Shown: piece by piece, positions 1 to 47,062 of the stretch
Layout of the letters: each line of letters begins with the position of its first letter
Position numbering within the stretch: position 1 is the first letter of the stretch
Source of the DNA: Apostichopus japonicus
Taxonomy: Eukaryota > Echinodermata > Holothuroidea > Aspidochirotida > Stichopodidae
DNA: 64,000 nt
Direction: 5' to 3'
NCBI RefSeq assembly: GCF_037975245.1
Contig: NC_092571.1
Location: 22,987,917 to 23,051,916, forward strand
The notes under the pieces: generated by a model
What the model saw: only the letters and a program-made list of their open reading frames with translations
Databases searched by the model: none
What the model was told of the DNA's origin: nothing
Program-made: the position numbers and the translations under genes

Positions 1-553
1 GATACAGCTAGATCGTCTATATGTATATTCCTTCTTTGAAGTTACTTATGTTTAATTTTCACTTTTCCTATGATAATTGTCCTCCATCTATATAACTATA
101 TAAAGTTCACACAATTGTTAAGCTAGAATGTCCCAGTGTGTTATCTTGTTGCCAAGGTGAGTTCCGGGACACAGATTGGTGAGATCAGAAACTTAGATTT
201 CAGAATAAATCATGATGGTTCTACGTCACACTTCATAAAGATTGCAACCTTTTCAGGCCGTTATTTTATAACTACAATGTATTATATAGATGAATGCATG
301 TATGTCTATTTGCGTGTGTGCGTGTGTGCTCATGGAGGGCGGTGGCTTTAGGGGGTTATGTTGTAAAGTAACGAAGATATGGAGTATAGCAGAGTACCAA
401 TGGGGATGGGTCTTAGCACAATTGGGCAAAATGCGTCTCGCGGGCAAGTTTTTTGCACCCCGGCAGGAAGCCTTCAAAATCCCTGTTAATGTGTATGCGA
501 ATAGAAATATTAATAAGGTATCTTTTATAAACTTTAATTTACCATTTTCAAAG
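1..553. other. Intron/intergenic sequence upstream of secreted-family exon
   Basis: No coding segment resembling the first exon of the related gene at 43 kb is visible here, so the first exon of the 554-1296 gene probably lies upstream of the window. A GT-rich stretch occurs at about 312-330. The sequence ends in a splice acceptor (AG at 552-553). I see nothing else. Confidence 0.5.
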
Positions 554-22530: not shown

Positions 22531-24825
22531 ATTGGAATGGTCAGGGTTTCACTGTGGTCTTTATAACGTTTTATAGATAAACAACAGCTCCAAACGTTCC
22601 AGAGGGATCCCTTATCTAAACACATTAGCTGTTATACTGGCGGCTATGGCACTAAGCTATAAGATCGCTTTGTGAATAGCTTCAAAAGGTGTTAATGTTC
22701 ATATAATAGTAGCGCATCTTTTCATTAAATATCAGTACCGTTTTCCCTTGTTGCTGGTAATTGGTTATTTTAAACGTGTCGCTTTAATTAAGAATTTAAA
22801 TAAGAATACTTGAAATTGCGATTGCGATTTTGTTCTAAACATTTTGCTGTCTCTAATCAAAGTCCCTTTCCTCTTCTACGTTGTTCCACATCCCTGCCAG
22901 ATTGAACCCTCTTCCGCCCCTCTGGTATCGTCAATGCGTTTTTATGAAATTATGTGCAATAGGCAACCCCCATATTCCTCACCCCCTCCCAAAACAAAAC
23001 AAACTCCCACTCGCTCAGTTTGATATTGTATTGTGATGATGAACGCTATGTTACTTTATACATTAAGAGAAGATGAAATCATATTACATAGTTTCAAATC
23101 GAAGCTACGCTTGATGGTACTATCATTCAGTGAAAAACTGCCCTGCTCAGTTCATGTGACCAAAGAGATTTGTTAACACAGCGACTATTTCCACAAAAAA
23201 TATAAAAACCCTGCAATTGATATTACAGAACTATTAAAGTTATGTATGATATGCGCTGTAACATGTTGACACTGTTTTGCCCTTCTTAGCACATATTATT
23301 AAACATGTTATTTAACTCTAATGGTCAAGTTTAGTCAGCCATGATAAAGCAAACTATCCGCATTCGATTGTTTGAATAGGATGGACAAGTCCAACAGAGA
23401 TGAATATTCAGAAAGTATATTAATCAATCATATAGCGACCCTAGTAGTTCTGAGATAGTCCCCTGGTTTAATGCATCCCTGTGAGCGTGCCTGTTCTCAC
23501 GCTCAAATGTAAAGAAAGAGTTCCCATATTTCTCACGTTCGTTGAATCCCCCCATAACAATGAGATTTTAGTCACCGGTGTTCACCTCTAGACGACATGT
23601 GATCATGTCTAGACGGCAGATATTTCAGGCGTTGCTCACATGAAGATTCCTTGGCTGCAATTGTGAATGGCTCTTTGGAGCAGCCAGTTGGGCAAATTTC
23701 CTAATGCTAATATCTCTTTAAGAAACATGATATTCATCCTACTCGTACTGACAATATGAGTGCTCTGGAGCGGGGCATGACACTATAGTATAGACAAACT
23801 TGTTCCAACTGGGTGCTTTGGGGCAATGTACCAAGGAATATTTGTACGTGTGCCGTTATGGTACTAATCAAAAGTTCGGATACAACATATCCCATTATAG
23901 CAGTCTCCCTCGTATCTTGGTCCGAAATGTGCTGATCGTATCCACGTTCGGCAGATCTACCACTCGAATCAGAAGGATCTCTTACTGATCCAACTCCATC
24001 TGTGATGAAGATGTTTCAAATGGACCATAACCAAATGGTCGCATTCAAATATTGGTTTCATGGTTTGCTGTGCTTGACGAATACATCACCAATACCTTTG
24101 GCACTATTTCCGCCATTGGCATTAGATTTAATTTACATAGGCTACTTTGCTCATACTTACTACATGCTTAGTACATTGTCATGCATGCCAAGGGTTCCTG
24201 AATCAATATCGTTATAAGGTTATACCGGACATTTTGAGAGAAGGTTGGAATAACAACCTTAAGCGTGGGATACTTTAAAGCACGATATAGATTAGATTAC
24301 TTAAAGAACAAGATTCATGTCTTTTTGTTTGCCTTATAGATAACAAATCTTTGTGGTAAACTTTAAAAATAAAAGACACAAGGACACATATTGTGGCCAC
24401 TTCTTTTACAAAACGTTTCCATATTGAACATATATGAATGTACTATGGGAACATATTTCTGCTAAAATTGGAGAACGTCACGTTGTGCGAGGTGGTATAT
24501 TGTCGGGTCATGTGTTCATTTCAAACTATTTCTGTTCAAGGTTTACCAAAGGATAAAATAAGACAGGAATGTATTGTATTGTGGGACGCCATATCCCAAA
24601 CCAGAAAGAAAAACGTATGCGCCGATAACGTCGAACACATTTATTCCGTGTTTTTCAAGTTATTCATCTGTCAAAACAAAATACAATATTATCTGCCTTA
24701 TGTAAATGCAACTAACAGTTTTATTTGGAGACCGCACATGCATTTACCTCAACATTTAATACTACGCGAGATTATTATTATTCTTATTATATTTCTTTGC
24801 TTTTCTTCAGGTAATATTTTACAAG
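22531..24825. other. Upstream region of the Ig-receptor gene
   Basis: No confident exon. A 143-codon frame (24438-24869) overlaps the start of the receptor exon in another frame and I do not credit it. TTTCTTTGCTTTTCTTCAG ends at 24810, a strong acceptor 15 nt before the receptor ATG, implying an untranslated first exon further upstream. Confidence 0.4.
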
Positions 24826-27108
24826 ATGTCAGCTATAGCATTATTTTCAATTATTTCCATTATAATTGATCACTCCGTTGGGCAGACAATCACGATTGAA
24901 CCCTCGGGGGAGATTCGGCTTCACGAAGGAGACCAGCTGGAGCTAGGGTGTGTTGTACGGGACCCGCTGTACACCAGCATTGAATGGTTCTTTGAAAAAA
25001 AGAGATTGTCTGTTAATTTGGAATCCTCCGATTCGAAATATTCAGTGGCACTGGTTTCCACACAAGAAACTGGATTAAGAAAATATGTATTGTCCACAAA
25101 TGTTACCAAAGAAGATGATGGGACTTTTAAGTGCAAACCATTCAGGGAGGGCTCAAGTAGTCCCAGAACTGTTCAGAAGGTACGGGTAGTTGTGTCTTAT
25201 ATACCTGCTCCGATATACCCACTATGCTCGTATGAGGTAGCCACTCACAACTTGGAATGCAGCAGTGAAATTGGCAAACCGCTGAAAAACTTAACATGGA
25301 ACCAATATGTTACAGAGATCCAGTCGACTAATCACCCTGACGGTAGATTTAACCATACGCAGATCGTTCATCTGATTGACGTACCTCTACCTCTTACTAC
25401 AAACGATTCACTTGTTTGCTCCTTCGCCGACGAAGATACCAGAAACTGTTCCATTAAATATGGCGACGTGTACAATAGCATCCCTCCTCCTCTTATAAAT
25501 CCTGACGTTAACTTTACATTTTCAGTGTCGATTGATGAGAAACTTTCGGTTAATTGCACCTCAACAAATCTTTTGAACGGTAGTAACCTTATTTTGGATT
25601 ATGAAACCTTTCCAGATAAAATTACAGTTAACTATGTCAAAAAAGACAAGATGTTTATTTTTACTGACTTACCAGCATCAATCCAGTCGATTAGATGTTA
25701 TTGTACGCTCAAGTGGGGAAAGCTTCAAAGTTTAAAATCGGACGCCCTCACCATCGAAGTGATACAACCTTCTGATAAGGAAATTTCCACAACACCTGAA
25801 TTGACAACCTTCGTCCAACCATCAAAAGTAACAAATACAAAAACTTCGATGGTGTCAACTAACACAAATGTCACAGAACTTAGCAGAAATGTTCATAATC
25901 AGAGTAGCACTATTTCACCTGCGTCGCATCAAACTTTCCTTCCGTCGTTATCCGCTAGGTCACCTGTGCTGTCAAGTGATCCAGCAATTCCAACAGAAAT
26001 GGTCTCGACAACACCAAATACACCTCAAGTGATTGATGCCAACCAGACATTGGCTTCATTGTTTACTACTTTGAAACCACGAACCACGTCTAAGGTAACA
26101 ACGGCACCTTTGTATTCAACCACGTCTTCGACAGCAAAACGTACCTCTGAAGAAGGAGCAATGCACCCAGAACTGAGCACAGCAGTAACTCCAACAGTAA
26201 ACCATAGAAAAACATCAAATAAAACCCCTGCATTTATCGTTTCAATAAACCCAGCGACAACGCTACAAATGACCGAAGAACAAACCAACAAAATAAATAC
26301 AAAGGCAAACACAAAGGCAACCGTAGGTTCACATTTGTCGTCCGAATCAGCATCTTTCCTATCGACCACCACAGTAACTAGCAGAGCTCCGCCTTCGACC
26401 TCGCTGAATACACAGTCCCTGACAACGTCTTTTCTGCCATCGTCAGGGGAAGATACAACCACCTTCTCTTCTTCTTCATCGGTGGTAACAATTCCAGTAA
26501 GCAGCACCCGGGTAACAAACACACTAGAGCCCACTGACAAACAATCAACGAGCTTTCCTGATGCAACTTCAACGCCACCCCGTCCAACGTCAAGGAAAGA
26601 TACAACCACCTTCTCTTCTTCTTCAGCGGTGGTAACACTTCCAGTAAGCAGCACCCGGGTACCAAACACATTAGAGCCCACTGACAAACAATCAACGCGC
26701 TTCCCTGATACAACTTCAACGCCACCTCGTTCATCGTCAAGGAAAGATACAACCACCTTCTCTTCTTCTACTTCTTCATCGGTGGTAACACTTCCAGTAA
26801 GCAGCACTCGGATAACAAACACACTAGAGCCCACCGACAAACAATCAACGCGCTTTTCAGATGCAACTTCAACTGAAAGACCAAAAGAAGGCAAAAACGA
26901 CAATGATTCTCACATACACAAGAAGGAAACCAAGTACCTTCTAATCTTTTTAGTAATAGCCACAATAGTCACTGTTCCAGCATTAATAGTGCTGTTTATC
27001 TACGTTAGACGGAGATGTACCGAAGAAGGGCAATATAGAGTAGTTACCAAAATGATTTGGGTGAACAATGGGACATCAACGATTGGTTTAAAGGAATTAC
27101 ATATTTAA
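24826..27108 (+). CDS. Ig-domain, mucin-stalk type I membrane receptor
   Basis: A 760-residue open frame in one exon, with ATG 24826 just after an acceptor at 24810. Residues 1-20 form a signal peptide (MSAIALFSIISIII...). Residues about 21-125 are an Ig-like domain with Cys42, Trp54 and Cys103 in a D-D-G-T-F-K-C context. Residues about 126-215 are a second (Cys145, Trp158, Cys198) and about 216-315 a weaker third (Cys244, Cys291/293). Residues about 316-700 are a Thr/Ser/Pro-rich stalk fit for dense O-glycosylation, with three 49-residue repeats at its end. Residues 704-726 (YLLIFLVIATIV...) form one membrane helix, then RRRC and a 34-residue tail with a YRVV motif (Tyr737), a possible YxxΦ sorting signal; no clear ITIM. 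The layout resembles surface immune or adhesion receptors, but I assign no family. Encoding all domains in one exon is unusual for IgSF genes and suggests retroposition or intron loss. An alternative 3' splice form with another tail is possible. Confidence 0.85.
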   Translation: MSAIALFSIISIIIDHSVGQTITIEPSGEIRLHEGDQLELGCVVRDPLYTSIEWFFEKKRLSVNLESSDSKYSVALVSTQETGLRKYVLSTNVTKEDDGTFKCKPFREGSSSPRTVQKVRVVVSYIPAPIYPLCSYEVATHNLECSSEIGKPLKNLTWNQYVTEIQSTNHPDGRFNHTQIVHLIDVPLPLTTNDSLVCSFADEDTRNCSIKYGDVYNSIPPPLINPDVNFTFSVSIDEKLSVNCTSTNLLNGSNLILDYETFPDKITVNYVKKDKMFIFTDLPASIQSIRCYCTLKWGKLQSLKSDALTIEVIQPSDKEISTTPELTTFVQPSKVTNTKTSMVSTNTNVTELSRNVHNQSSTISPASHQTFLPSLSARSPVLSSDPAIPTEMVSTTPNTPQVIDANQTLASLFTTLKPRTTSKVTTAPLYSTTSSTAKRTSEEGAMHPELSTAVTPTVNHRKTSNKTPAFIVSINPATTLQMTEEQTNKINTKANTKATVGSHLSSESASFLSTTTVTSRAPPSTSLNTQSLTTSFLPSSGEDTTTFSSSSSVVTIPVSSTRVTNTLEPTDKQSTSFPDATSTPPRPTSRKDTTTFSSSSAVVTLPVSSTRVPNTLEPTDKQSTRFPDTTSTPPRSSSRKDTTTFSSSTSSSVVTLPVSSTRITNTLEPTDKQSTRFSDATSTERPKEGKNDNDSHIHKKETKYLLIFLVIATIVTVPALIVLFIYVRRRCTEEGQYRVVTKMIWVNNGTSTIGLKELHI
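26448..26875 (+). repeat. Coding minisatellite, three 147-bp units in the receptor stalk
   Basis: Units start at about 26448, 26595 and 26742. Each encodes a 49-residue block with KDTTTFSSSS, VVTLPVSSTR, NTLEPTDKQS and TSTPP elements. Unit three has 6 extra bases (two residues, TS) in its Ser run and is cut short before the membrane segment. Units are nearly identical, which suggests recent expansion or ongoing homogenisation, and stalk length is likely to vary between individuals. Confidence 0.9.
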
Positions 27109-29493: not shown

Positions 29494-32415
29494 AAGTACA
29501 CTAATGTATCATATATTTTTTTAGTGCACCATGTTCAAACAAAACATCGCTTAACTAGGTCTTGTACAAAATGCATGTGCGTTGCTTTTGTTGGCCTATT
29601 TATTACACATGCCACTCACTGTTTACGATCCAGTTTGATCCATCAATGAATGAACATTCATAAAGGATCGAAAATATGAAAGTGCATGACTTGTGAAAAC
29701 CACACATTACTTCCAATACAAACTATACATATATGGGTCCAACATAATGCCAAGCACAACCAATGTAGAGTTACCGTAGAGTTATCGATCAACCTGTACA
29801 AACTGCGTGAAGACGAGAAGTATGTTATTATCGATCAAGGATTATGATGTATCTTACCTTAAGGAGACGACAAAAACAGTACTTGCTGTACCGCGGCTTG
29901 CCGCATGACGTTAGCATGGCATGACGTTCATTTGGTCAGGAATTCGAATTAACACTCCATGTGTATAGTTGATATGTTAATAGTAGCCTAAACGTGCCAT
30001 GGGCTATGAAACAATGAACACAGTAACTTGTAATGATTCGAAAGGAAGACTTTTTACAAGTTATAGTGCTACTACAGCAAGTTCATATTCTTATCTGGTC
30101 CATGTGAATTGTATTTCAATAGCCACAAAAAAAAAAAAAAAAAAAGAAGGAAAAGGTAGGTTATATATGAATGAATGTCTTATTTGGAGATTGTTTCTGA
30201 TTGCTACTGATACGAAGGCATTTCTGACTGAAATGCTATGTCTGACTTTAAATGGGATCTTCATTAACTTATTTACAGGTATTGCTGGTGAATTACATTA
30301 AATGTAAATAACCTACGAGATCTTTTATATAGTTAGTTTCAAATTACTGCACAACCTGGAATTGACAATGTGAAACTGGTAAAGCTCTACCTATTACTAC
30401 CTTGACACATTTAAAGGTGTAGTCTCGGCATTCGTCTTCAAACCTCTGACTAATGCGTCTCCGGACATGTTGCAACCTCTTCCCTTGCCATACACTTGCA
30501 GAATTCAACTTTTTTCCAATAGTTAACAAAGCTTTATATGTGGTTGGCATGAGCCAATTATAGGTCTTCGAAAATTACCTATAAAAATTGTTTCACAGAA
30601 TCCGAAAAAAAACTTCTACAAATAAGCACTTACGTGAGGCTAACCCAAACGTGGATTTTTGAGCTGAACCATTAATATCCCTTTCGAGATTCGGAATGCC
30701 ACATTCTTAGGATAGCAGTCCATTATCAGAATACAGACGACTTTTGACGATGAGTGATTAAAAAGGTAATTAATTTTCTTAGTTTCTTGTAAAGTGCCGT
30801 TCAATCTCTCATTGAATTTCTTCTGAGATTTTACAAATGGTTTCTTGTAATTCAGGAATAACATATTGTAACTGAGGGTGTAGGCATAATGTCAATTAAT
30901 GAACTGTCTTACTTGTTTTGAACCACTGGACTGCATCAATTATTGTGCATGTGGCCTAGTTGGTTTGGGCATTCACATATAGAGCGGTAAGCGCTAGATT
31001 AAGTCCCGGTGGAAGGAACAAATGTCGTTCATTTTCCACCCATATAGTAGCTGCTCTTTCAAAATGTGTCTTAATCCGTGATCTCTTCTATAAATCCAAT
31101 GAAAGTTTAAACCCGCTGTCTGCTCTGCTTTATTTTGATGATATCACAACATATTAGCATTTATAATCAGATTAATCCATCATGCTACTATATACTACAA
31201 TGTTTTACATACCAACGCTCCATATAGTGTATTTCCCACTTGTAAAGATTTGCTTGATTCGTGTGTTGTACAAAGTTAAACCATTAACCAATAGAAATAA
31301 TATTGTATTTGCATCAGTGAAACTTAACTTTCTAAGATGTAAAAAATTCTCATGAAATTTACACTGGATTGTCCAAAAGCTGGAATGGGCCAGGAATTGG
31401 TATCGATGCAAATGATTATATCATTACATTTAATCTCTTTGGCTTAGAAATGGATATGTGAGGTTTTTCATTCCTACTGGCAACATTTCTCTCGTCTAAA
31501 CGTTCAAACAGATTGGAAGAGGAATTATAAACAAAAACAAACAAACACGCTTATGTCATGTTATTAAAATATCTCCCAAAATAACAAAATAAACACATCA
31601 CCAGTTCTAACTATCATCACCTTTTCGTAGTTATTATGTTTACAAGCCAACACCCACACATTCTATATAAATGTGTTATTATAGAAGACTTAATAGATGA
31701 ATGCAGCAATGATCTTCTATTTCAATATTTATTGATTATCACATCCTGCACAGGGAAATTGTTAAATCAACCAGGAAATGAATGAAAATAATATCACACA
31801 AATGCCAATATAACAGCAGATGTTTAATGATTCCTTTTATGTCTATTTCCTTGTATCCATCAATGGATTGCATGGTTGTTCGTTGTACATGATGTTTGGT
31901 TTATCTAAAGGAATTACTCGCTTCCAACATTAAATACGCAGACCATATTTGTACATCTTCTTTTGCTTTTCAACACATTTAACTATTACAAATGAGTATA
32001 ATGCTGTATTAAAATAGTGGTATCTGCTTCTGCTTGACAGTGAGAAGCTCATTATACCTGAAACTCTAGCCAACACTAGCCTGGACATATAAACTTTTCA
32101 TAAATCAGATACAAGTAGCCTCGCCTAGTCTCCTTTGAATAATAGAGCATACCCTGAAGCTATTACTATTAACCCAATAGGTTTCTGATGGTACTTTCTT
32201 GGACCGATCACTTCGGTGAATCTGCAGGGGGAAATAACTAAAGAAACGTGAACATTTACGCTGTCAGATTCAAAACTAGCGGTTAGGCTATAATTATATA
32301 ACCGGTCAAAAGCACGTTCACTGCCAATAATCAATGATTAATCTGGTATATCGTATACCTTGCATGTACGAATCTGAGATGAAGGTAAATATGTCACTAA
32401 TGCTGAGGGTCGACT
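28631..32415. other. Intergenic sequence, no recognised gene
   Basis: Contains a G-rich tract (28981-29012), an (AT)n run (29456-29486) followed by ACAC, and a poly(A) run (30126-30145). I see no supported gene. Confidence 0.4.
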
Positions 32416-32590
32416 ATCTGTCTCGGCCTTTTGGCTAAGATCATGTGTAGTATCTGTTCCCCTTCGAGTGGAACCGTGATACACACCTGACGATGATCAC
32501 ATAGTGACGGTCTCGACTCAAGGGGACTGGGGTTGAGAGCGGATCACTCAATCAGTTTTTTTTCGTGCCCAGGTTCTTTCCTGGGTGACT
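32416..32590 (+). ncRNA. Divergent U2-like snRNA (or U2-headed repeat), copy 1
   Basis: The first 43 nt follow the 5' end of U2 snRNA: CTCGGCCTTTTGGCTAAGAT, then CATGTGTAGTATCTGTTC, including the GUAGUA that pairs with intron branch sites. The rest is not U2. It can fold: GTTCC/GGAAC closes a short hairpin (or CCCCTTcGAGT pairs with ACTCAAGGGG at 32516-32525), TTGAG/CTCAA forms a second hairpin, a run of eight T (32556-32563) stands where an Sm site would be, and CCCAGG-TTCTTT-CCTGGG (32568-32585) makes a perfect 3' hairpin. TTTTCTTCAAAATAT just downstream resembles an snRNA 3' box. Length (about 175 nt) is close to U2. It could be a variant snRNA gene, a pseudogene, or the head of a snRNA-derived SINE family. 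I cannot show an upstream PSE. Confidence 0.5.
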
Positions 32591-33202
32591 TTTCTTCAAA
32601 ATATCTCTCTCTTCATGGACAAGCAGAAACCCTTTATATCTGAGTTTGTATAAAACGCTGTAGTTGTAATTTGTGTAAACTTAACGAGAGATGGACTATA
32701 CATAAAAAGCGAACAAGGTACAATGTACAACAAGGAACAAGGAACAATGTACAATGGGGAAGTTATGTCAGGTGAAATTCACTCAGCCCTAAGCTAAGTG
32801 TTTTTATAGAACAAACTTGATTCAAACAGGATTGATAAACTATCACCTAGCAATGGACACCAATAGGTCAAGTACATAACAAACGATCAGTTTTCACGAC
32901 GAGTTGTTCCCAGGTACCTCCCATAACGAAATACACAGGAATAGAAAATAATACTAGTAACAGCTTAACTTAGAATACATTATAGTGTTATATAATATAA
33001 AAATATGCAGGATGTCAGGAAGTGGGTTAGGAGTCTTTGGACTCCATATTCTATTTATAAGTCAACCAATTACACATATGCGCTTGTGCATTTCGTAATT
33101 TCAGACTCTCAAGTTGGCATATATGTTTGGTGTTGCAAGAGAGTGATGGGTAGATCTGTCTGGCGCGTAAATCGCTTTCTCTTCTACATTATGTATTGTC
33201 TT
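32591..33202. other. Intergenic sequence
   Basis: A small cluster of ACAAGG/ACAATGTAC words at 32715-32757. No gene seen. Confidence 0.35.
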
Positions 33203-33432
33203 CTAATTGGTTACTCTGAATTGGCAACGACATTATATCAAAAGGTCCCCGGTTCGAGTCACTCCCAGATTAATGTATGTCGTCCAGTTACAGAGTTGTT
33301 GACAATTAACAATTCATAATCATGGACGATAAATATGAATGTGAAAGACTGACTTCGGTCAGCTTGCGGCTTAGGCTTCTTCGCGAGTTCTTGCTTGCAG
33401 GAGGATCTAATATACATACATACATACATATA
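33203..33432 (+). repeat. tRNA-derived SINE, copy B
   Basis: Shares with copy A (3850-4066) the B-box region GGTTCGAGTCACTCCCAGAT, the TTAATGTATGTCGTCCAGTT block, ACTGACTTCGGTCAGCTTGC and GAGGATCTAA, then ends in (ATAC)n. The tRNA-like A-box region is worn here (TTGGTTACTCTGAATTGGC). It differs from copy A by an internal insertion of about 20 nt near 33310-33330 and a deletion after CTTGC. Confidence 0.75.
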
Positions 33433-33651
33433 TATGACAAGTATACACTTGTTACTAATTACGGTAATGTTTATTACTATCTATATGGAAATGTATCATA
33501 AAAAAGTAAAAAAAGAAGAATAAATATGGCGTTGGCGTTTGCTTTTCTTTAAAAGCAAACCCCTAACAATGAAAAAGATCATTCCAATTGCTTCTTCAGA
33601 ACTGTTTATACTGAATCATGGTTAATATGCCAGACCGAAGTAACCATAAAT

Positions 33652-34104
33652 CAGTGGTTCTCAAAGTGGTCCCTGCCGCAGCCCGCGGGCGTTGGGAAGT
33701 CTCAGAGGGGCGCTACAGGCTACAATGGGAGTAGGGGCGTTGCCGGCACTGATTTGCTGGTCCCCGGTTATTAAGACACCTAACTACAGCAATTTAGGGC
33801 AGAATAAGGCATCCAGGGGGTCTGGGAACAAAAACACTACATTTTGTGACCCACAATTATCCAAAAATGGTATTAGAAATTCAATAAATCCACCCCTAGA
33901 TCCGATTTCTTCCGCGTTTGGATTATATTGTAGCAGAGACATCTCCTGTAATTTATAAGCGCCACCGTAATAGCCTTTCATTTGGGGTATTCCTTTAGCT
34001 GGTTACTGATTGCAAAGTTGAGGGGAGGGGGAAGGGGAGGGGGCATTGGGACAGTTCAAGATGGTTGAAGGGGGTGGTCGTCCAAAAAAGTTTGAGAACC
34101 ACTG
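33652..34104. mobile_element. 453-bp hAT-type non-autonomous element
   Basis: The left end CAGTGGTTCTCAAAGTGG (33652) is mirrored by the right end, which reads AAAGTTTGAGAACCACTG up to 34104. Flanks CCATAAAT and ACATAAAT share 7 of 8 bases, a hAT-type 8-bp duplication. This end sequence is typical of hAT (Charlie-like) elements across animals. G-rich runs at 34022-34043 could form a quadruplex. No transposase. Confidence 0.85.
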
Positions 34105-35470
34105 ACATAAATGATCACATCACTATATTGTAGCCTTATAGGAGGAGTGTATGCAGGGTTGTGGGGTGTATATCACCATTTTCAATCTCTCATCAAACCA
34201 AAGGTAACTTTTAAGCACAAACTTGGATGTAGACCTAATTATTGACCAAATTTAGACGTAGAACAGTTTTGGTCGTAAGTGGGCAGGACTCCAGACCCCT
34301 TTATATTAGAGTTTCCCAGGGCCATACCCCTTGTACTAGACTATATTACTCGGATCTCATTCCAGAAACCAACTGTAGAGTTGCCGAAGTAGTCATATAC
34401 ACCCTGCGTTAGAGTTTAGCGATCATAAGTGCCATTAACGTCACAACGTATTGATAGTACGTGTTTTAATGAGTCATGCATTCAAAGAACTTAGGGATTC
34501 ATTCCCACATTTGTGCATGAGAATTGATTTCGCAATCACACTCTAAACGCAACAGTTTCTCACTTTGACCATTTCTGTGGAAGGACCTTGGGAATTCCTT
34601 ACGCTAATCCGTGGACCTATCTAGCAAGTATGCATATTATTCGCTCTTAAGATTCTTTTTAGGAGTTGTTACCAGATATTCTAACTTTTGACATCTTTTC
34701 ACCTCAATTGACCCTTGTCCCCTACTTGCCCTCACTCATTGAAATGTTACAGCTGTAGAGACTTCCAGCAATATTGTGTACAGCTACATGTACTGAAACG
34801 CTCACTCAATCTTCACTAATGTCGAACACGTACTGCAAGCTTCCTTGAGCAGGAAACACATTAAACACTTTTCCCACATGCATGCTAAACCAGTCAACGC
34901 CGTTGAAAATCTTATTAAGACCTTCAATATTCGGTTACGTACAAAAGCAAAAACAGGAAATTGTTTCATATAAACCATCGGGTTGTCTATGGTTGTATAG
35001 GACAGGTGAAACAAGACTATTCAGCATATTTCTTTCCTTTATCGAACATCAAGACATGCAGTTTGTCATTTATAACGGTTTCCTTCCCATATTATAGTAA
35101 CATGACTCCAATATCTACAGACACGTAAACACACCGTAAAAAAAATTGCTTGCTTAAACCAGGGAGCTGCTACTCTAGCAGCTCCCTGCTTAAACCTTTA
35201 TGCTGTGTTTCATTGTATTGTGTAGTTTACTATATATAACTCTTCCCAGGGTAGAAATCGAGTCCAGCGTTGCAGGGAAGGAGATCACATTATAGCGAGG
35301 ATACATACCATGTATTTAAGGAAAGGCAGGTTGTCACGGAATGTGTCCAATCCTCGCGTCATCCCTTAAAATCCATACACATTATATAAAAAACAAGATC
35401 CCAAAGGGCACTATGGTTACTAGGCTTAGCGGAGTACTAAGTTTTGTATGTCATCAAAGAATATCAAAAT
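34105..35470. other. Intergenic sequence, no recognised gene
   Basis: A short palindrome (GGGAGCTGCTACTCTAGCAGCTCCC at 35162-35186, arms GGGAGCTGCTA/TAGCAGCTCCC) could form a hairpin. No exon or element recognised. Confidence 0.4.
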
Positions 35471-35471
35471 A

Positions 35472-35830
35472 TGTTTGCCCACATGTACCAGTTATTAACT
35501 AACAACTGTATGACAACTTTGGATAAAATCTAATTTAAGGTTGTGGAGTTATTGTAACTTGAAAGTTTTGGCCCTCCCCAAAAATTGGGCCCAATAAATG
35601 TTGCGCCCAAATGGTCCCGAAAATATTTGGACCCCACAAATTCGGGCCCAAATAATGTGTCCCAAACTGCATTTGAGGTGAAAATAAAGTCTGGGACAAC
35701 TCGGCCCAAAAATTGACGCGTAATTGTTTGGGGCCCAGATGGCCTATATGTACCAGACATTAACCACCAACTGTATACCAAGTTTGGCTACAATCGGACG
35801 AAATATCATGTAAAAATGGTTTTGGACTCG
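35472..35830. repeat. Repeat family with GGGCCCAAAT words and TACATGTACCAGTTATTAAC units
   Basis: CATGTACCAGTTATTAACTA to GGAGTTATTGTAACTTGAAA (35483-35568) recurs as TATGTACCAGACATTAACCA at about 35748 and as TACATGAATCAGCTATTAAC at 36722. The spacer is rich in GGGCCCAAAT/TTGGGGCCCAGATGG. It is a worn dispersed or tandem family with part of its unit in two neighbouring copies here. Confidence 0.6.
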
Positions 35831-36589
35831 TCCAGATGTTTCTGTCGGGGCTGGAAGCTTAGCAGAGCGTAGTCTTGTTAAGACTAGTGTTTTAGTCTTG
35901 TTATACTATATAAGTATACAATAAGCAACTGCTTCAGTATAGGCCGGACGAAAGGAACTTTATGTTGGCTCTGTGGTGTATGCTTATAGTGCGCCCCCAA
36001 TTTCCTCGTTTTCTTTTCGATACTAGGTTTGTAACGGACAGATCCTCGGGCAAGTTTAATTCAGTTGGCATGCGCCCTCTTAGCATACATAAACCCAGAG
36101 ATGTGTAGGTACAGCATAGAATGCATAGCGACTACAGCTGTGTATTGAAGCTAGCTGCTTCAATGGAGCGGACGAGCGCCCCCGATCTTGCAGACACGTA
36201 ATCGGTATCGTGCAAGACTAGGTAAAGTGTCTTATCGAGGATCATATATCATATATCGGAATATAACAGTTAGAACTTGAAATGTCGTTGGACTTACGAT
36301 AGGTAAACAGATGTACGATGAAATAAAAAACTTTGAAGCAATAATTTTGATTTGGCGATTTGTTGTTTATTGATTTCTTCTCCTGATTTCAATGCCAAAA
36401 AAATGATTCATTAATCATTAATCGACAATTAGTATATAAAGAAACAAATAATAGCTGGATCTAGAGCTAACAAGTTAGGTCTACATGCTGTCAATTAGAA
36501 ATCAGAAGCGAGACTCTTCCTTAAGGAAACTGTTTTGGCAGCCAAGCTAACTTTCCTCGTGGCTAGACATACGATTGCAATGTAAATAA

Positions 36590-36825
36590 ACTATGGGCCC
36601 ATATGATCTCAAAATTGTTGTGCCCCAAAATTCATTAAGGAGGAAATACAATTTTAACTCAACTAGCACAAAAGTAGTCCAACGCATATTTGGGGCCCAG
36701 ATGGTCCCAACACAATAAGGCCTACATGAATCAGCTATTAACCAATAACTGTGTACCAAGGTTGGATACAATCCGACGTAAGGTCGCAGAGTTATTGCAA
36801 TGTAAAGATTTTTACGTTTGACCTC
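36590..36825. repeat. Second copy of the GGGCCC/CAGTTATTAACC repeat
   Basis: TTTGGGGCCCAGATGGTCCC at 36691 onward, then CAGCTATTAACCAATAACTG, GTTGGATACAATCCGACGTA and GCAGAGTTATTGCAATGTAA, parallels 35735-35830 and 35472-35570. Confidence 0.6.
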
Positions 36826-36890
36826 ATAACCTCATTAATATTCATAAAGTCACCACCTGATTCTCATATAGTTATCATCAGAAGCTGGTT

Positions 36891-37310
36891 ATGATTTTAA
36901 GAACAGTAAATCGGTTATTGCAAGGCTATTTGTGGCAGCTTGACGATTCCTTAGAGTTTCCTTTCACCCTTTTCCTCTCTTTTCTTTTTCAGAATAACAA
37001 AAATGTACAGCCTTCTTTAGCCAGTCGGTCGCTTCAGCATAAATACAAGATAACCTCATATCACCAGTCGCTTATTAGTTTCTCTGATTTCTCCATTAGT
37101 ATAACAGCTTCACAGTTCTTACTGTATATGTTATATTTTCATAATATCTGGTTAACTTTTCAATACCGTAGCCAGTTTCTGCTGATCATTCTTTTGAGAA
37201 TCGGGTGCTTCCACGTGTATATACCTATCATTGAATCCATGCATGTCTGTATAAACATCGCCATTACTTGTGTGATTCTTCAAATTTCACAAGTTCATTA
37301 CAAGTTTCAA
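36891..37310. other. AT-rich intergenic sequence
   Basis: A 157-codon frame from ATG 36891 runs through here and ends inside the inverted-repeat element at 37311-37500. It is low in complexity, has no motif and I do not credit it. Confidence 0.35.
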
Positions 37311-37500
37311 CCCTCGCTTGGTTTATACCGGGGAAATAACGACGATTTTCCGGGTATCACGTGATCTACGAAGTAACCAAAACTGTCTAAACTATCTTAA
37401 TGCTCCCTCTCTTTTGTGAAAGTTCATTCTTGCTGCAGCTGCTTCATTTGTTAATATAAGGAAAACAGCTGTGTTTATCCGGGTATAAGTCAAGCGAGGG
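37311..37500. mobile_element. 190-bp MITE with CCCTCGCTTG ends
   Basis: The left end CCCTCGCTTGGTTTATACCG and the inverted right end CCCTCGCTTGACTTATACCC match over most of 25 bp. I see no clear target duplication. No coding content. Confidence 0.6.
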
Positions 37501-37978
37501 CTAACCAGATTGATTTCGTAATGTTACGTTTTCCTTGACGCAAATGGGACCTGTAAAAATATCTTTTCAAGGAAGCACTGTAATATTTCGAATACATTAT
37601 GTTGTAAACTTTAACATCATACATCAAATATTATGCTCATAACTGCTTCTGTGCTCCTCTATAATTGAACCGAATAGGTAATAGTGAAAAAAATGACGTC
37701 ATCGTGAGAATTGAATAACTGTATTGAAGGAAATGCTGCAAAACAAGCTCACAATCCATAGACGGATCTACAGGGAGGTATCCCGCGTACTTGATAAATT
37801 TGGTTGGCAATTAAAATGAGCTGCAATCACAATTTTGCTCAAATCAATTGATATACTCAGCTAGAGGGAAGATTCAGCACGCCATACTTGTCTGGTATTC
37901 CGTTGCCTTTTTTTACTGTTATAATCTCGGTAGTGATTTCGGTATTTACCGATACTCCTCTCCCGGGAACCCTAAGAT

Positions 37979-38260
37979 TTACAGAAACAATACGTTAACA
38001 TTGGAGTCTGCACTGAGTGCCAATGGCACTGGCGATGTAGCCTCAATGGAACATTTCAGAGAGTCAGTATTATTGGTAAATATCTTGACAATTTGACCAG
38101 AGTTAGACACCGTTGCCGGCATACCCATATTTCTGATTCTCGCACGTTTCGGTCGTTTTTTACTGGTTGTTGCCATAGCGCCAGTAGGAATAGTTCGACT
38201 CTCATGAGTAGATTTGGGGTCATGCAGCCTTTCAGCCGTTACCATCAAGTTGCCAAGCAT
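37979..38260 (-). CDS. Unrecognised basic 93-residue open frame
   Basis: On the minus strand an ATG at 38260 opens MLGNLMVTAERLHDPKS..., then MATTSKKRPKRARIRNMGMP, a nuclear-localisation-like basic cluster, ending at TAA 37979. The frame is open for a further 21 codons upstream. Codon texture is better than in neighbouring shadows, but there is no domain, partner exon or promoter evidence. It may be a transposon fragment. An overlapping frame at 38269-38466 is also open and equally unrecognised. Confidence 0.2.
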   Translation of the reverse strand: MLGNLMVTAERLHDPKSTHESRTIPTGAMATTSKKRPKRARIRNMGMPATVSNSGQIVKIFTNNTDSLKCSIEATSPVPLALSADSNVNVLFL

Positions 38261-38854
38261 GTGTCCATCTATCCATGCAATGGTAATAAAAATGCGAGAT
38301 AATAATCGATCACACGAGCGCAACGATCAGCACTGCCCTTGTCGAGTAATAAACAAGAGGTTCTGATAAACCATGGTTCTACTGTAATCCCACGATTATA
38401 TATTCCCTCGACCACAGACATCACCGACATACCCTTATCAAGGAAGCACGGTTGCCTCTCCTTCACATGGCCTTTGTGCTGATGCTGATGGAGTTATAAC
38501 AAAGAAAGCCAGGCCAGACCCTTTTCACACACTGAGTTAAATGCGCAATCTGATATCAAGGACAATGTCGAAGTGGTCCCTGTGTGAAGTATATGAGTAC
38601 AAAAGATGCATCGAGCTACATACTATGTGCGACTCACAGAAACACAGTTGGAAATATAACCCATCGTCTTGGCGAGCTCTTCCGTTGGTGTTGCGGTGTC
38701 TTTGCTTAGTGTTTGGCGGTCAATGGACTAAAATGAGTATAAAAGATAAGTCCGGTTCTACAAATGAGAGGTGAGGTCGATATAGATACCGCTAATACGC
38801 TTGGTGTTAGTCTCTCAGATTCACAGTACACTGTAGATTGCTCATCGATCTTAA

Positions 38855-39073
38855 AACGGCCATGACACGACCATTTCAATGTCCAATCTTTTGGAGATCC
38901 ATCTTAGCATGCTCTCTAGAACATGAATCAACCTAATATGACGTCGAATTTTAAAACTTTAATTTATAATAAGTGCTTCAGGTTTTAAGGGTAAAGAGAA
39001 TTGAACATAGATCTTCTCATAAGTTTAGAGGAAGCTACTCTCGATTAGTTTGACTTTACGTGTCATGACCTCT
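38855..39073. mobile_element. 219-bp MITE, deletion derivative of the TTAA element
   Basis: Ends AACGGCCATGACACGA (38855) and, inverted, AGAGGTCATGACACG (39073) sit between TTAA 38851-38854 and TTAA 39074-39077. The first 110 bp parallel the left end of 4691-8545 (including CTCTAGAACATG...ATCAACC) and the last 95 bp parallel its right end (TTGAACATAGAT.TTCTCATA, CTACTCTCGAT). The middle 3.6 kb is absent, so it is an internal-deletion MITE mobilised in trans. It sits at the edge of, probably within, the second U2-like sequence. Confidence 0.85.
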
Positions 39074-39075
39074 TT

Positions 39076-39248
39076 AAGCCAAGAACATGTGTAGTATATC
39101 TATTATCTTTTCAAGGGACACGAGATACCTTACTTGATATACCGCCGTCATGATCACACTTCTATAGACTCCATGTAAGGGGACTGGTGATGAGGATGAA
39201 TCGAATTGTTTGGTTTTCGTGCCCAGGCTCAGCTTTGGATGATTTTTG
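39076..39248 (+). ncRNA. U2-like sequence, copy 2 (decayed, interrupted by a MITE)
   Basis: GCCAAGAACATGTGTAGTAT matches copy 1 (GGCTAAGATCATGTGTAGTAT) and the U2 branch-site-binding segment. Further matches along the body include GATGATCACAT versus CATGATCACAC, AAGGGGACTGG, and TTTTCGTGCCCAGGCTC near the 3' end, then TTTTTGTTAAAAAAGC as a possible 3' box. The U2 5' stem-loop is missing: the MITE at 38855-39073 stands there, and ATCG lies just before it (38845-38848). Pairing of the stems is weaker than in copy 1, so this copy is probably dead. Confidence 0.45.
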
Positions 39249-40385
39249 TTAAAAAAGCATACCACCATTATTTCAGGAAACGACTCCGTCACTAAATGAA
39301 TCTCTTCATTGACATGATGTCGTAACCATGCGTGAATAATACTCCGCCTACTGTATCCAAGACAGTTATAACTTCCTAAGTGAACAATGGATCGTATGGC
39401 TACAGTCTTCTTACCTTCCACACACCTTACGTGCAACGTTGTTTGTATTGTACATGGACATCGACATGCGACACCGACCGTACGAAGAAGGGATACAGGC
39501 CTGGCAGATGTTCCTTAGCCAAGGCCTTGGCCGGTTATGCTATTGAAGAAGTTTTTGTGTACCTTATTGTCGATACATGGCATGTGTTATGTATCTCCAT
39601 ATAACATCTCAATGCAATATTTGTTGTCTTCAAATTCGGGAAAAGTTGTGAGCATCTTTTAAATAGGGGTCGAAGTGAAGGGGAGGGGGGTGGTGGGGGT
39701 TGAAAAAAATCACCCGCAGTATTGTTGTGTAATGGGAAAAGGTATGTAAGTACACATACAACTGGGAGTCTTCAGAGTTCGATGATTTGACTGTCAAAAT
39801 TGAATTTTTACAGAATGATTCTGAGGATGGCGCTGATCTGTAAACCTAATTAACAATTATAACTATAGGCTACGTGACCCCACTCCCTCCTCCCTGTGTA
39901 TTTCGGTCTATATTGTTATCTAGGAATTAGAGCATGCGATTTTAAGGTTTCTTACTATTAGAAACAAATGAAAGTATTCGCTATACATGATACAGTCGCA
40001 ACGGGGTGACGTTAGATCTTTCAAGGGGTTAGGCATGTCGTCCCGCATATTTAAGTAGATGGCGCTGTTGACGAAACCACACACATAAGTAAATCGTATA
40101 TGGTAAGAAAGATCTTTCCGTTATAAATGCGATGGCGCTGAGAACTTGGACTCTTATCGATGGAAAAGAAACTACAAAGAACAGGTACACTGGATTTGCA
40201 AATGTTACTATTCAATGTGTACATGCAAGTGGGTACAATTAAGAACGTGTTACTTTAACGGAAAGAATTTCAATTAGATTTATCAACATTAAAGTAATAT
40301 TTCAGGACAAACGTTGGGATCGGTGTGACGAAGGCGAGAAAACCAAATGGATCCGTTGCTATACTATCGATATTCTAAATATAAC
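39249..40385. other. Intergenic sequence, no recognised gene
   Basis: A G-rich run at about 39678-39705. Nothing else supported. Confidence 0.4.
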
Positions 40386-41047: not shown

Positions 41048-43167
41048 TTACAACTCAATACAAGGGATTTTAAGATTAGCAGCGAAGTCGGCTTGATGTT
41101 GTATTTCATAGACAATGGGAGCTTTGTTGTCCTTCGAGAGCAGACTTGCCTCTTGGAATGCTTCGGAAATGGAATCTAAAGCATAATTTTCGAGTGTACA
41201 CTTTCTGAAGGATTCCAAAGGCGACCAATACTCGCAAACGTTGTGCCTATTCTGCGACATAGCTGGAGTTAGCTTGTCACGCGCCTTGCACATGTCAACC
41301 TCCTGTACATCTTGTGACTGACAGGCCGAGAAGTCTAACTCGTGGTTAGCGGAGAACATGAGTTCATCAAGATATTCATTAATATCAGCGTTGATGACGT
41401 GATCAACAAGATGGCAACACTCGGCTTCTTCCCAAGACACACTGAAATAGTCACATCCGTTCGTTATGCTCGCTCCGAACTCCGTAATGACGAACTCATC
41501 AACTTGTTTGACCGGTAATGCCATATTAGGGTTAAGAAATGGTTTCTCCGTCGACACAAAACTACTGAGATGCACCTTGTACTGGGCCGGACCATTGGCG
41601 TCTGGTCCGGTCAAAAGCGGTATGAAGAATGAAACCAAGGGTGTGTCTAGTGAGTATTGGTCAGCAACATCGCTGGGTAAGGTGTCTTTGAACGACTTCG
41701 ATGAGAAGTTGCCAATGCCAACAGCAATAACATGCTCGCCTGGCGCAAGGAACTCCGTCAGAATGCGGTAGTTGGGTAAATTCAAAGTACCTTGAACAGA
41801 ATAATTAAAAAGACATGAATACATGATAAAAATGTATTAGATGTTTCTGCAACATGTAACTTGCTAACTATTGTTACCCGACCCAGGAAAGAAAATATAT
41901 CTAGGATTTATGAAATATGCAGTAATCATATATTAAAAAAAATGAAGTCATCCAAACCAGATAAACTGAACAATCTTGAAAGATAAAGTTCTAACTGAGA
42001 CGAAACAATGTGATAACGACTGGGATTTATTCCATAAGAGATTTTTGTGACCGGTGATGAACAGATGAACGCTAATGTACATATTTATTATCTTCTTTAG
42101 ATACTGAACCCTTTTATGCATTACAGTATTTGAGGAACAGACACGACACTTTTTCCATTTCTTGATATGCGGGAAGAGTGGAATATATCAATGTTAATGA
42201 AATGAACGGCGAATGTTATGTTATCGTTCTTAAGGAATGTACTAAACATATACCAAATTTTTCAATACCAGCGGAAAGTAGCGTTTCAAAGTATAACAAC
42301 TGTGGAGAAAATAAAAAAATTTCTGCATAAATGAATAATCTGGATGCAAACATTATTTGTGACCTATGAAAAAGTAGTGTTATGCAAGTATGCTGTTAAT
42401 CTGTGGGTTCAATTTATCAATTTAATGTTAAAATCAATGAAATCATTAATATTACTAGTAGAGTCCGTAGTTGTACTCATATTCCAGCAAAGTTACCTGT
42501 GTTCGTACTCGACCTTGTGGTTAGTACTCGAACTGGTTCCGTCCGTGCATTTTTGTATTGTAAAATTTGATCTAATGCAAATTCAATAGTTGTTCTTGCT
42601 CTTATGGAGGTTTTTCTTACTTATGACAGTGAAACTTACATACTTGTACTCGTAATCATAAATTTGGGTACTTACATGCTATTACTCATCCTCATAACAT
42701 GGGTACTTACAAGCTTGGAGTCGTATTAGTAACATACTCGTACTCACATCATGTTGTATACTAAAACTAAGTCTAAAAGACCAAAAGTCTGCCAACGGAA
42801 ACGGAGAAAGCGAGGAAGAAAAATACCGTGACTAAAAACGTCGCAAAATGTATTGCAATTTAACAATGCATTACAGCATTTTACGACAGACGCACATATT
42901 TGAACCTGCGACATAATCTAAGATATTTTTCTCCGTTCTTCTTCCAAATTTGATACAGATTACTCTTACGTCATATATATTACCTTCTTGATCCGGAATT
43001 AATGCGTTCATTTCGTTGAGTTTATTGGCGATTCTCTCCTCTGGAACTGGAAAGAGTGCTATGGTTCCGGCAAAGCCGATCCCTGTGAGTTCGGGAAACG
43101 TTTCTGCTACAGATGCTTGACAGAAGTAGAACATGTAGAGAACAGTCAAAGCTGAGAACGACTTCAT
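41048..43167 (-). CDS. Complete two-exon gene for a secreted protein of an unrecognised family (copy 2)
   Basis: Exon 1 (43167-42984) starts at an ATG and encodes a signal peptide (MKSFSALTVLYMFYFCQASV), then ETFPELTGIGFAGTIALFPV and NKLNEMNALIPDQE. It ends in phase 1 on GAAG followed by GTAATA. Exon 2 (41790-41048, 743 nt) starts after TTCTGTTCAAG and joins in frame as E-G-T-L-N-L-P-N-Y, ending at IPCIEL and a stop. The product is 308 residues, about 290 after leader removal, with eight cysteines in exon 2, six of them shared with copy 1 at 554-1296. No membrane segment beyond the leader, so secretion is inferred. I do not recognise a domain. Acidic blocks such as NADINEYLDELMFSANHELD are strongly conserved between copies. 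The gene lies in a segment duplicated at 46.4-47.4 kb. The intron is 1193 nt. Confidence 0.8.
42460..42760. repeat. Degenerate TACTCGTACTC motif cluster inside the intron
   Basis: Words such as TTGTACTC, TTCGTACTCGA, TAGTACTCGAACT, TTGTACTCGTAATC, GGGTACTTACA and CATACTCGTACTC recur within 300 bp. It looks like a decayed short-repeat element. It is absent from the third gene copy because the whole interval is deleted there. Confidence 0.4.
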
Positions 43168-44773: not shown

Positions 44774-46269
44774 TCTGCACTGGCTGGCAGGAGCAAATGG
44801 AGATCTTACTTTTTGCATGAAGAAGAAAGTTATTATATTGACGATCATATTCTGCAAAAAGAGAAAGAGAGAGTCTTGTTAGAGGCCACGCAGTTGCAGT
44901 GTTTCCTTTATTATACCCCTCTTATCTTCCATATCATTGGAACTAACTGCCACATCTACACCAGAAGGGTAGGCATATCACCAGTGCAATTGGCATCAGC
45001 TTCATCAGCTTTACAAGCAGTAACGTTGAACCTGCTACATGGTTTAAAGGTTGTTGCACGCCTACCAAACAAGCCTTTCCTTCTACCCATTCGTGTTCAT
45101 AATATTCCTATGTTATACTTTACAAATAATAGTGTTACCAGTAGGCAATTCACTAGTTTTGTGTGTAAGCATTTATGGGAAGCCGAAGCAATTGAATAGC
45201 TGAGCATAGAATGATAGAAGACAACATTTACACTGAGAAACTTGTCAATATGATCGATGACAACGATTTGGAACGTTGCTTGAACAGGGCCCTCATTCAA
45301 GATCTGGGCACAGTTCACTACTTTTTTTAATTTTATTTTGCCCCCAAATCTGACAAAATGACTTTTTAAAATAGTGCCAAAGTAACAAGTATATTGTCTC
45401 TTTCATTTCATGGCCACAGATCAGTACTAATGCTTACTGGGTGATGGGAGTGATGAAGGTTTCACAGGGAAAAACGGCCAAGTTGTGTCAAGTTTCCTGT
45501 CACACAGGAACATTTGTCCCGCCAGAGGGGCTAAGTAGCACCAAACAGAGGGACTGATTAAAATACATTCTGTGGAACCAAGAACAACTTAGACATGCAT
45601 TGGATCCCAGCCATGCTGATGGATGACATCTTATCACACCAGGGAATATGTCCACCATTGGGGACTTGCTTGTTTAAAGTTCAGTATTTGGTATGCATAT
45701 GGACTATACAACATGAATGAAGCACGATATGAAGAGTCACCCAATAGACAGAGATAAACAAAAACGGTATAAGTTATGTACTTTCTGGCTTTCAAGACTT
45801 CTCAAACTGTCATAAAAAGAGGTTTAAAGTAGAGTTTAAAAGTTTCAACTGTTTCATAATGGTGGGATAATACTATTAGCGTCTATATCAATCCGACCCA
45901 AAATGTTCTCATTCAGTAAAGGGGCCAAAGAGCAGCAGAAGAAAATTTTTTTTTTATATGTTATCAATTAGGATCTGGTTTTGTGTGTCTTGGATGTTTA
46001 AGAGCATGAATGAAAGTACATGTGGTGCAAACATTGGGTCAATTGAGGCAATATTAGAACCCCTCGTGCCTCACAGCAGCAGCGTATGAAAAGTGTTAAA
46101 TACTGAGTAAAGAGGTTTGTTAACAGGTGAAGAAAACATCAGGCTCTCAGAGCAAAAGTTCTGCGCGGTCATGATAAGGAAAATTGATAATGCCATGAAT
46201 GGCCAACTTGTCAGCTTCTATCTAGACTTAATAACCACATTAATTTTCTGATTTAGTGTGTAAGTCAAT
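44774..46269. other. Unassigned sequence between the duplicated blocks
   Basis: A 128-codon frame lacking an ATG (44813-45199, plus) and an overlapping one on the minus strand (45097-45318) are open but carry no motif I recognise. The region may be a decayed DNA transposon. It separates the two copies of the duplicated segment. Confidence 0.3.
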
Positions 46270-46371
46270 GGGGGTGGGTGAAGCGGCGGGGACGTGAACC
46301 TCAGGTTAATAAACCCTGGGTTACACAGCCAAAACTGGCTTTCGGTATATAAACGTTCTGAAGTTGGCGTT
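46270..46371. repeat. Repeat that truncates the third gene copy
   Basis: CAGGTTAATAAACCCTGGGTTA, CAAAACTGGCTTTCGGTATA and AAACGTTCTGAAGTTGGCGTT match 47920-48015 in the same orientation. The gene-derived sequence begins directly at 46372. The pair flanks the pseudogene and its upstream block, so the repeat may have mediated the rearrangement or inserted at its edge. Confidence 0.65.
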
Positions 46372-46908
46372 GACCAATACTCGCAAACGTTGTGCCTATT
46401 CTGCGACATAGATGGAGTCAGCTTGTCACGCGCCTTGCACATGTCAACCTCATTTACATCTTGTGACTGACAGGCCGAGAAGTCCAACTCGTGATTAACG
46501 GAGAACATGAGTTCATCAATATATTCATTCATGTCAGCGTTGACGACGTAATCAACAAGATGGCAAGACTCGGCTTCTTCCCAAGACACGCTGCGAACTC
46601 CGTAATGAAGAACTCATCAACTTGTGTGACCGGTAATGCCATATTAGGGTTAAGAAATGGTTTCTCTGTCGACACAAAGCTACTGATATGCACCTTGTAC
46701 TGCGGAGGACCATTGGCGTCTGGTCCGGTCAAAAGCGGTATGAAGAATGAAACCAAGGGTGTGTCTAGTGAGTATTGGCCAGCAGCATCGTTGGGTAAGT
46801 TGTCTTTGAACGACTTCGATGAGAAGTTGCCAATTCCAACAACAATAACATGCTTGCCTGGCGCAAGGAACTCCGACAGAATGCGGTAGTTGGGTAAATT
46901 CAAAGTAC
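46372..46908 (-). pseudogene. Broken third copy of the secreted-family gene
   Basis: The minus-strand sequence from 46908 (same acceptor context as copy 2) reads GTLNLPNYRILSEFLAPGKH and follows copy 2 closely. A 31-nt deletion lies between 46594 and 46593 (relative to copy 2 it removes 41443-41473 or thereabouts) and shifts the frame inside ITEFAA. The old frame then resumes as SWEEAESCHLVDYV and runs to NVCEYW, where similarity stops at 46372. The last about 60 codons, including the final three cysteine positions, are replaced by a repeat. Exon 1 and most of the intron are also missing. It cannot make the family protein. Its closeness to copy 2 indicates a recent duplication. Confidence 0.9.
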
Positions 46909-47062
46909 CTTGAACGGAATAATTCAAAAGACATGAATACAGGATGAAAATGTGTTGGATTTTTCATGTTTCTGCAACATGTAACCTGCTTGTTATTGTT
47001 ACCCTACCTAGGAAATAAATTATATCTGGAATTTATAAAATATGCAGTCAAATGAAGTCAAT

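Follow-up and report, generated by a model that had tools for sequence, protein, structure and literature searches.

The window analyzed here, 64,000 nucleotides at G000:C11:22987917-23051916 in the genome of the holothuroid Apostichopus japonicus (671,581,487 bases, 35 contigs), contains sequences that start as U2 small nuclear RNA (snRNA) and continue as something else. Judged from sequence, these belong to a short interspersed element (SINE) family with over a thousand dispersed copies, and are not an snRNA gene. The explanation as a whole, a U2-headed SINE family that both spread and gained its U2 heads through reverse transcription by a long interspersed element (LINE), is in our view very probable. 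An earlier note on this window had left the choice among a variant spliceosomal RNA, a U2-derived SINE and a pseudogene family: the second is supported by more than 1,000 dispersed copies, fixed ends, unrelated flanks and some target-site duplications. The two copies it reported are both real; a third, at 16976-17088, had been overlooked.

A SINE family with a U2 head

The element is about 190 bp long and consists of a head corresponding to U2 nt 1-45, some 100 nt of its own body and a tail of about 40 nt with a terminal hairpin. A pattern spanning the head/body junction, with up to two mismatches allowed, occurs at 816 + 831 = 1,647 places genome-wide, and its reversed control at none. Genuine U2 genes are among these matches (at least 46, or about 220 if the C16 stretch described below is filled with 645-bp units), leaving approximately 1,430-1,600 SINE copies. 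Exact-pattern scans of viral contigs gave 0, 1, 0 and 0 matches, the single match appearing unrelated by eye, and a scan of prokaryote genomes gave none.

A genome search with copy 1 (window 32421-32601) as query, in which 40 of 2,118 candidates were scored, listed 45 matches; copy 1 and 20 fetched loci together provided an alignment of 29 young copies from 21 loci, with partial matches shorter than 140 nt in L056 left out. The young copies share head, body and tail, and their flanks are unrelated except in the duplicates of copy 1 and in arrays. The head that they have in common is identical to nt 1-45 of host U2. In 11 rows (among them L059_750, mis-anchored on its neighbor's head) the unbroken U2 match reaches back to nt 1, and in the other 18 it begins at nt 2-8, in a test that covered U2 nt 1-7 only. 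The sampled copies differ from their majority sequence by 4-14%, a range biased low by their having been picked for likeness to copy 1; older copies differ far more.

The family has a common 3' end (..CTTAAAAAGTA, ..TTCTTAAAAAGTA or ..AAAAAGTA; tail letters GTGCCCAGG..CCTGGGTGACTTTTCTTAAAAAGTA), and no poly(A) or simple-repeat tail is present in this recurring end of the aligned young copies. The terminal hairpin pointed out earlier is real and occurs family-wide, but as part of the SINE tail rather than as an snRNA terminal hairpin, and the motif taken for a 3' box beyond the RNA is simply the element's own end, ..CTTAAAAAGTA. In 13 of 28 rows (L059_750 being skipped), the left and right flanks contain the same exact word of at least 8 nt, compared with 8.3% of 738 mismatched flank pairs. 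Of these 13, nine come from arrays, and in L042_946, L042_1145 and L044_584 the word is or includes the head of the next copy; among single-copy loci, a repeat of this length is present in 4 of 12, e.g. ATTGGCTGTAGTCC at L054. The family is short, non-coding and dispersed in many copies, its 3' end is fixed and some of its loci show target-site duplications, all as in SINEs, and the derivation of its head from a U2 snRNA gene places it in the snRNA-headed class.

Could the copies instead be U2 retropseudogenes, made by a LINE directly from U2 RNA, with no SINE of their own? Their heads do begin at or near U2 +1, and template-switched snRNA copies are common to many LINE families (PMC4476161). 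A non-U2 body and tail are nevertheless shared at fixed positions across the aligned copies, and there is an older subfamily with shared differences of its own. We give this reading almost no credence.

Copy 1 and its duplicates

U2 is the only Rfam gathering match in the window (32414-32633, 50.6 bits against a threshold of 46 bits), and the match rests on its first 45 nt. The head of copy 1, at 32421-32459 on the forward strand, equals nt 7-45 of the host genome's own U2 at 39 of 39 letters and the Rfam consensus at 38 of 39; the one mismatch is host U2's own letter, because all three host U2 types carry it. The 5' stem-loop and the branch-site-pairing GTAGTA had therefore been correctly described as kept, although the extent given for the head holds only from 32421 onward: 32416-32420 are not U2, and are likely target-site duplication. 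The body (32460-32555, +) is SINE-specific by family alignment and profile; it is not U2 and does not align to Rfam U2, in agreement with the departure from U2 noted before. It is followed by a T8 tract (32556-32563, +) and by the tail (32564-32601, +), which the family alignment and profile delimit and which comprises the hairpin CCCAGG/CCTGGG (32568-32573 and 32580-32585) and a TGACTTTTCTTCAAAA end. The likely target-site duplications, both found by eye on the forward strand, are TATCTGTCTC at 32415-32424, overlapping the first U2 letters, and TATCTCTCTC at 32602-32611; they are 9/10 identical by eye, with an exact common word of only 5 nt.

Copy 1 is held in a block, 31000-33434, that recurs at two other places on C11: 31000-33428 at about 6.7 Mb, in two pieces of 94.8% and 91.1% identity (the 5' limit of this match being set by the fetched length), and 31985-33434 at about 10.1 Mb, at 94.2% identity. 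The SINE is at the same point in all three blocks, and the three SINEs differ by 0.5-2.0%. The same block with the SINE at the same position in three places indicates that the SINE was inserted once and that the block was copied afterwards at the DNA level; copy 1, which belongs to the young clade described below, was duplicated along with its surroundings.

If such copying were general, the family would have spread at the DNA level only, by segmental or tandem duplication or by hitch-hiking in another transposon. The 1.4-2.4 kb of block shared by copy 1 and its two relatives would fit, as would L056, a tandem of approximately 1.18-kb units, each with a copy. The other aligned loci, however, end at the same letters without sharing flanks, and in four of the five head-to-tail arrays examined the copies are 11-17% different from one another, like unrelated loci (mean 12.2%; in the fifth array, L042, 2.6-6.7%), making spread by DNA copying alone extremely improbable. 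DNA-level duplication had been proposed earlier on the strength of the supposed 3' box; that argument falls away, and duplication is seen in the copy 1 block. At L056:250-2992 (G000:C9:5502700-5506000), each unit has one full SINE copy and one partial one, and the SINE is now built into a larger tandem repeat.

Genuine U2 genes of the host

The genome-wide Rfam search envisaged in the earlier note (RF00004; 46 of 40,968 first-look candidates scored, all 46 above the cut-off) found genuine, normal-bodied U2 genes separate from the SINE and mainly in one array: 42 are on C16, between 31.015 and 31.156 Mb and frequently spaced by 645 bp, and four are on C15, for a total of at least 46. They score 181.8-186.8 bits, vs. 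50.6 for copy 1. The 30 fetched genes are of three sequence types, 27 identical genes from C16 and two identical and one differing gene from C15 (strands by eye). All three types start ATCGCTTCTCGGCCTTTTGGCTAAGATCATGTGTAGTATCTGTTC and run on into a normal U2 body. An Sm site, ATTTTTG, was located by script at nt 100 in L011 and is visible in the other types. While nt 1-45 of these genes are identical to the young SINE head, the normal body, the Sm site and their own flanks set them apart. One young SINE copy (L012:2884-3070) lies about 1.2 kb from a genuine C15 U2 gene.

A different possibility is that the family consists of functional variant spliceosomal RNA genes, U2-like but with a new 3' domain. 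The perfect retention of U2 nt 7-45 in copy 1 is consistent with this, as are a stable predicted fold and a head that varies less than the body (mean pairwise difference 0.037 vs. 0.075 over 19 loci, chosen by similarity to copy 1). The full U2 body with its downstream stem-loops is absent from the family, however, and an Sm-like site (AT4-6G) is found in 0 of 29 copies. The T8 tract, earlier proposed to be the Sm site, is confined to copy 1 and the two duplicates on C11, with lengths of 8, 15 and 9 T in these three and 3-5 T in the other 26. An upstream region shared with the U2 genes had also been envisaged: at the 15 loci that could be anchored, out of 18, the upstream regions resembled neither the two genuine U2 upstream classes nor each other better than shuffled sequence, in what is a weak test, since the two U2 classes themselves share only a 7-letter word. 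Together with a copy number above 1,000, flank repeats, the divergence among copies and the separate array of normal-bodied U2 genes, these observations make a variant spliceosomal RNA very unlikely.

Older copies in the window

A profile built from the 29 copies, at E up to 10, matches the window at 32419-32603 (E 8e-62), 39072-39257 (E 6e-22) and 16995-17087 (E 3e-7), all on the forward strand. The second match is copy 2, whose body is homologous to that of copy 1 (nhmmer E 4e-13), so that the two had rightly been seen as a family. Its start had been placed at 39076; the real start is near 38821, with another element in between. On the forward strand, copy 2 comprises 38821-38850 (linker and start of an old, diverged U2 head, matched by an old-family profile from position 43) and 39078-39255 (the remaining old head, body and tail, assigned to the old subfamily by nhmmer and profiles). 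Between these lies a 227-bp element resembling a miniature inverted-repeat transposable element (MITE), at 38851-39077, which has TTAA at its ends and terminal inverted repeats that nearly match (TTAAAACGGCCATGACACG / TTAAAGAGGTCATGACACG). With the copy 2 flanks joined, the old-family profile scores 122.7 bits, vs. 105.3 unjoined, and the match is unbroken from 38821 to 39250, indicating that the TTAA element splits copy 2. An anchored test of the first 18 head letters is weak, 77 of 5000 random windows and 37 of 534 TTAA sites being as good, and the profile match carries more weight. Copy 2 is old, because its best-scoring genomic relatives (40 of 130 candidates scored) are 73% identical to it.

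Copy 3 (16976-17088, +; E 1.4e-15) consists of the body and tail of an old copy in which the T-tract region is deleted and the 5' part is unrecognizable. Its start is set at 16976 by the old-family profile, and fitting the U2 head to it failed (score 8, a fit matched by 660 of 2000 random windows). Like copy 2, it is an old fossil.

Relatives of the MITE-like element are present at 8412-8550 and 4687-4795, with inverted repeats around GGCCATGACACG. From its TTAA target, we take this family to be piggyBac-like.

Probable serial acquisition of U2 heads

Old copies, read at 22 places (two sets of 20 loci, with 18 places common to both), have a linker, ACAGTACACAGTAG, followed by a U2-like head that has diverged, ATCGCTCACCAACCTTTAACCTGATCATGTGTAGTATCTATT; the old-head majority aligns to host U2 with a score of 23. 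Ahead of the linker, a second and better kept U2 head was detected at p ≤0.01 in 5 of 21 old sequences (L080, L086, L087, L095 and L099), with p values drawn from 3,000 window stretches. A composite query (40 of 2,078 candidates scored) gave 46 matches, of which 18 start at query position 1-19 and span both heads.

Twenty further loci were fetched in following up these matches, and 18 were aligned (L118 and L119 being left out). Judged by eye, the junction between the first head and the linker falls near U2 nt 34 in five loci (L100, L101, L106, L108 and L110); in six (L103, L109, L112, L114, L115 and L117) it is near nt 33 and comes with an additional ATCATGTGTA-like stretch, and in five (L104, L105, L107, L111 and L116) it is near nt 52, so that 16 of the 18 have a junction near nt 33, 34 or 52. 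L100 and L108 are near-duplicates. As for the other two loci, L102 lacks a clear first head, and L113, a young copy, carries two fresh ones; young copy L046 also has a U2 piece ahead of its head (by eye).

In a tree built from the body alone (57 rows, with a single young row for each locus; L102 and L108 excluded), the young copies fall into one supported clade (Shimodaira-Hasegawa-like approximate likelihood ratio test, SH-aLRT, 97) with short tips, together with L113 and L066. The latter, labeled old, is probably a 5'-truncated young copy. The tree leaves the old copies unresolved, with 43 of 54 inner branches open. Taken together, the SINE family seems to have acquired a U2 start more than once.

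At one place, about 8.56 Mb on C6, an inverted piece of U2 head stands directly before the head of an old copy (L096:310-340, the same as L078:110-140). This is perhaps the result of a twin-priming-like event.

Several points weigh against the account preferred here. The far U2 head was not found at p 0.01 in 16 of the 21 old sequences (in copy 2, p is 0.34). The eye-assigned junction classes form no supported clades, and each class may have had a single origin. Eight of the 12 single-copy loci show imperfect or no visible flank repeats, and the selection of the 29 young copies by likeness to copy 1 lowers their apparent divergence. Finally, the young head could stem from an internal deletion between two U2-like heads.

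This last point is the main alternative for the origin of the young head: a SINE whose young, fresh head arose by deletion between the heads of an old double-headed copy. Both heads hold GATCATGTG(TAGTATCT), so a deletion between them would leave a single fresh head. It would not explain the several U2 breakpoints of the old copies, nor the further U2 pieces that L113 and L046 carry (by eye) before the young head, and the first U2 head must in any case still have been captured. We consider such a deletion rather unlikely as the source of the young head.

Concatemers and a proposed mechanism

The favored explanation, reverse transcription by a LINE with occasional changes of template, draws also on the way in which copies are joined to each other. 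A tail-to-head pattern occurs at 16 + 13 = 29 places genome-wide, and its reversed control at none; at C3:24885579, C8:31426274 and C13:14926363, the tail ..AAAAAGT is joined directly to ATCGCTTCTCGG. Direct joins of this kind, without an intervening target-site duplication, are expected from end-to-end template jumping, and mark both ends of the RNA. In the L042 and L045 arrays, a target-like word lies between the copies, and these joins also fit re-insertion at the same site. As far as sequence can tell, the double heads and the 3'-to-5' fusions suggest that the reverse transcriptase of a LINE has jumped between templates.

In the proposed mechanism, a putative partner LINE would recognize the fixed 3' tail of an RNA starting at U2 +1 and copy this RNA into new sites through target-primed reverse transcription. 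At the 5' end of the template, the reverse transcriptase would sometimes jump to the 3' end of another SINE RNA, producing concatemers, and sometimes into U2 snRNA, producing a new U2 head. Repeated jumps of the second kind would have put U2 heads before the older, diverged head, and are also the probable source of the fresh head of the young family. How might the source copies be transcribed? There are two or three runs of T4 or longer inside each of the 29 copies, and in the majority sequence the 3' end lies past the last of them; this disfavors RNA polymerase III, and transcription of the source copies by RNA polymerase II appears more likely.

A further, more tentative possibility is that the SINE refreshes its 5' end by re-capturing host U2 RNA, with old heads decaying and a fresh-headed form taking over. 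If so, the U2 start (+1 and the cap-proximal stem-loop) would be useful to the element: possible benefits are a U2-type RNA polymerase II promoter, or the favoring of U2-like RNAs as nuclear templates.

Other features of the window

A long open reading frame (ORF) at 13296-14393 (+) has no Pfam match at E up to 1; it may be the end of a Penelope-like element, which it resembles by eye in a YIDDIFF motif. The ORF at 24760-27108 (+) has one immunoglobulin domain (PF00047, E 1.4e-5) and three 147-nt repeats that encode a Thr/Ser-rich stretch. Three related ORF stretches are located at 538-1296 (+), 41048-41836 (-) and 46218-46963 (-); the two that were tested have no Pfam match, and two of the three are in blocks 94% identical and about 5.1 kb apart. 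At 17409-18010, tandem repeats of 16 and 22 nt (CATTTCGCCCAACCAGCTTGGT and its complement) are clustered in inverted orientation.

Relation to known elements

SINEs with heads from U1 or U2 snRNA genes have reportedly been found before, in crocodilians: these are the SINEU elements (SINEU-1, -2 and -3) attributed to Kojima in 2015, for which repeated addition of snRNA heads is also said to have been reported, and Tx1-Mar to have been proposed as the partner LINE. The A. japonicus element resembles SINEU in being snRNA-headed and, as reported for SINEU and seen here, in the repeated addition of heads. It belongs to a different phylum and has a body and tail of its own, the comparison being by description only; and unlike SINEU, it shows no preferred transposon-family target in 40-60 nt of flank at 21 loci. 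SINEU as a class name is given in PMC5753468. Among the papers at the top of the result lists from open-licence literature, none describes a U2-headed element in an echinoderm. The A. japonicus family is a new member of this rare class, and probably independent of the crocodilian SINEU.

In echinoderms, a link between U2 and retroelements is already described: PMC4640811 presents Utopia and Keno as LINEs that insert into U2 genes at the same site, Utopia being present in sea urchins and a starfish, with the U2 sequence downstream of Utopia starting at nt 39. The SINE differs in having U2 at its 5' end, and its U2 reaches nt 45 (about 33, 34 or 52 in old copies). Apart from places where another copy follows, no U2 was seen behind the SINE 3' end in the aligned copies. 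A Utopia/Keno insertion scar was considered as an origin and rejected: the U2 breakpoint is wrong, and so is the side. A parallel in mechanism is with template-switch retropseudogenes: snRNA capture by template switching is described for many LINE families (PMC4476161), and multi-part chimeras are described in a fungus and mammals (PMC2104539). The head joining proposed here is the same, but the products there are individual chimeras, and here an amplifying family.

The resemblance to U2 may also have affected annotation. Of 20 fetched SINE loci, 14 pass the Rfam U2 threshold (18 matches). The published A. japonicus annotation (PMC10344927) has 996 spliceosomal RNAs and SINEs totaling 159,644 bp. 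That SINE total is less than about 1,430 copies x 190 bp; with the Rfam-passing loci, this makes misfiling probable, part of the family probably being filed as U2 genes or as unknown repeats. With more than 1,000 junction-bearing copies in one assembly, the end structures, double heads and concatemers are directly readable, and the family would extend the snRNA-headed class of SINEs from crocodilians to an echinoderm.

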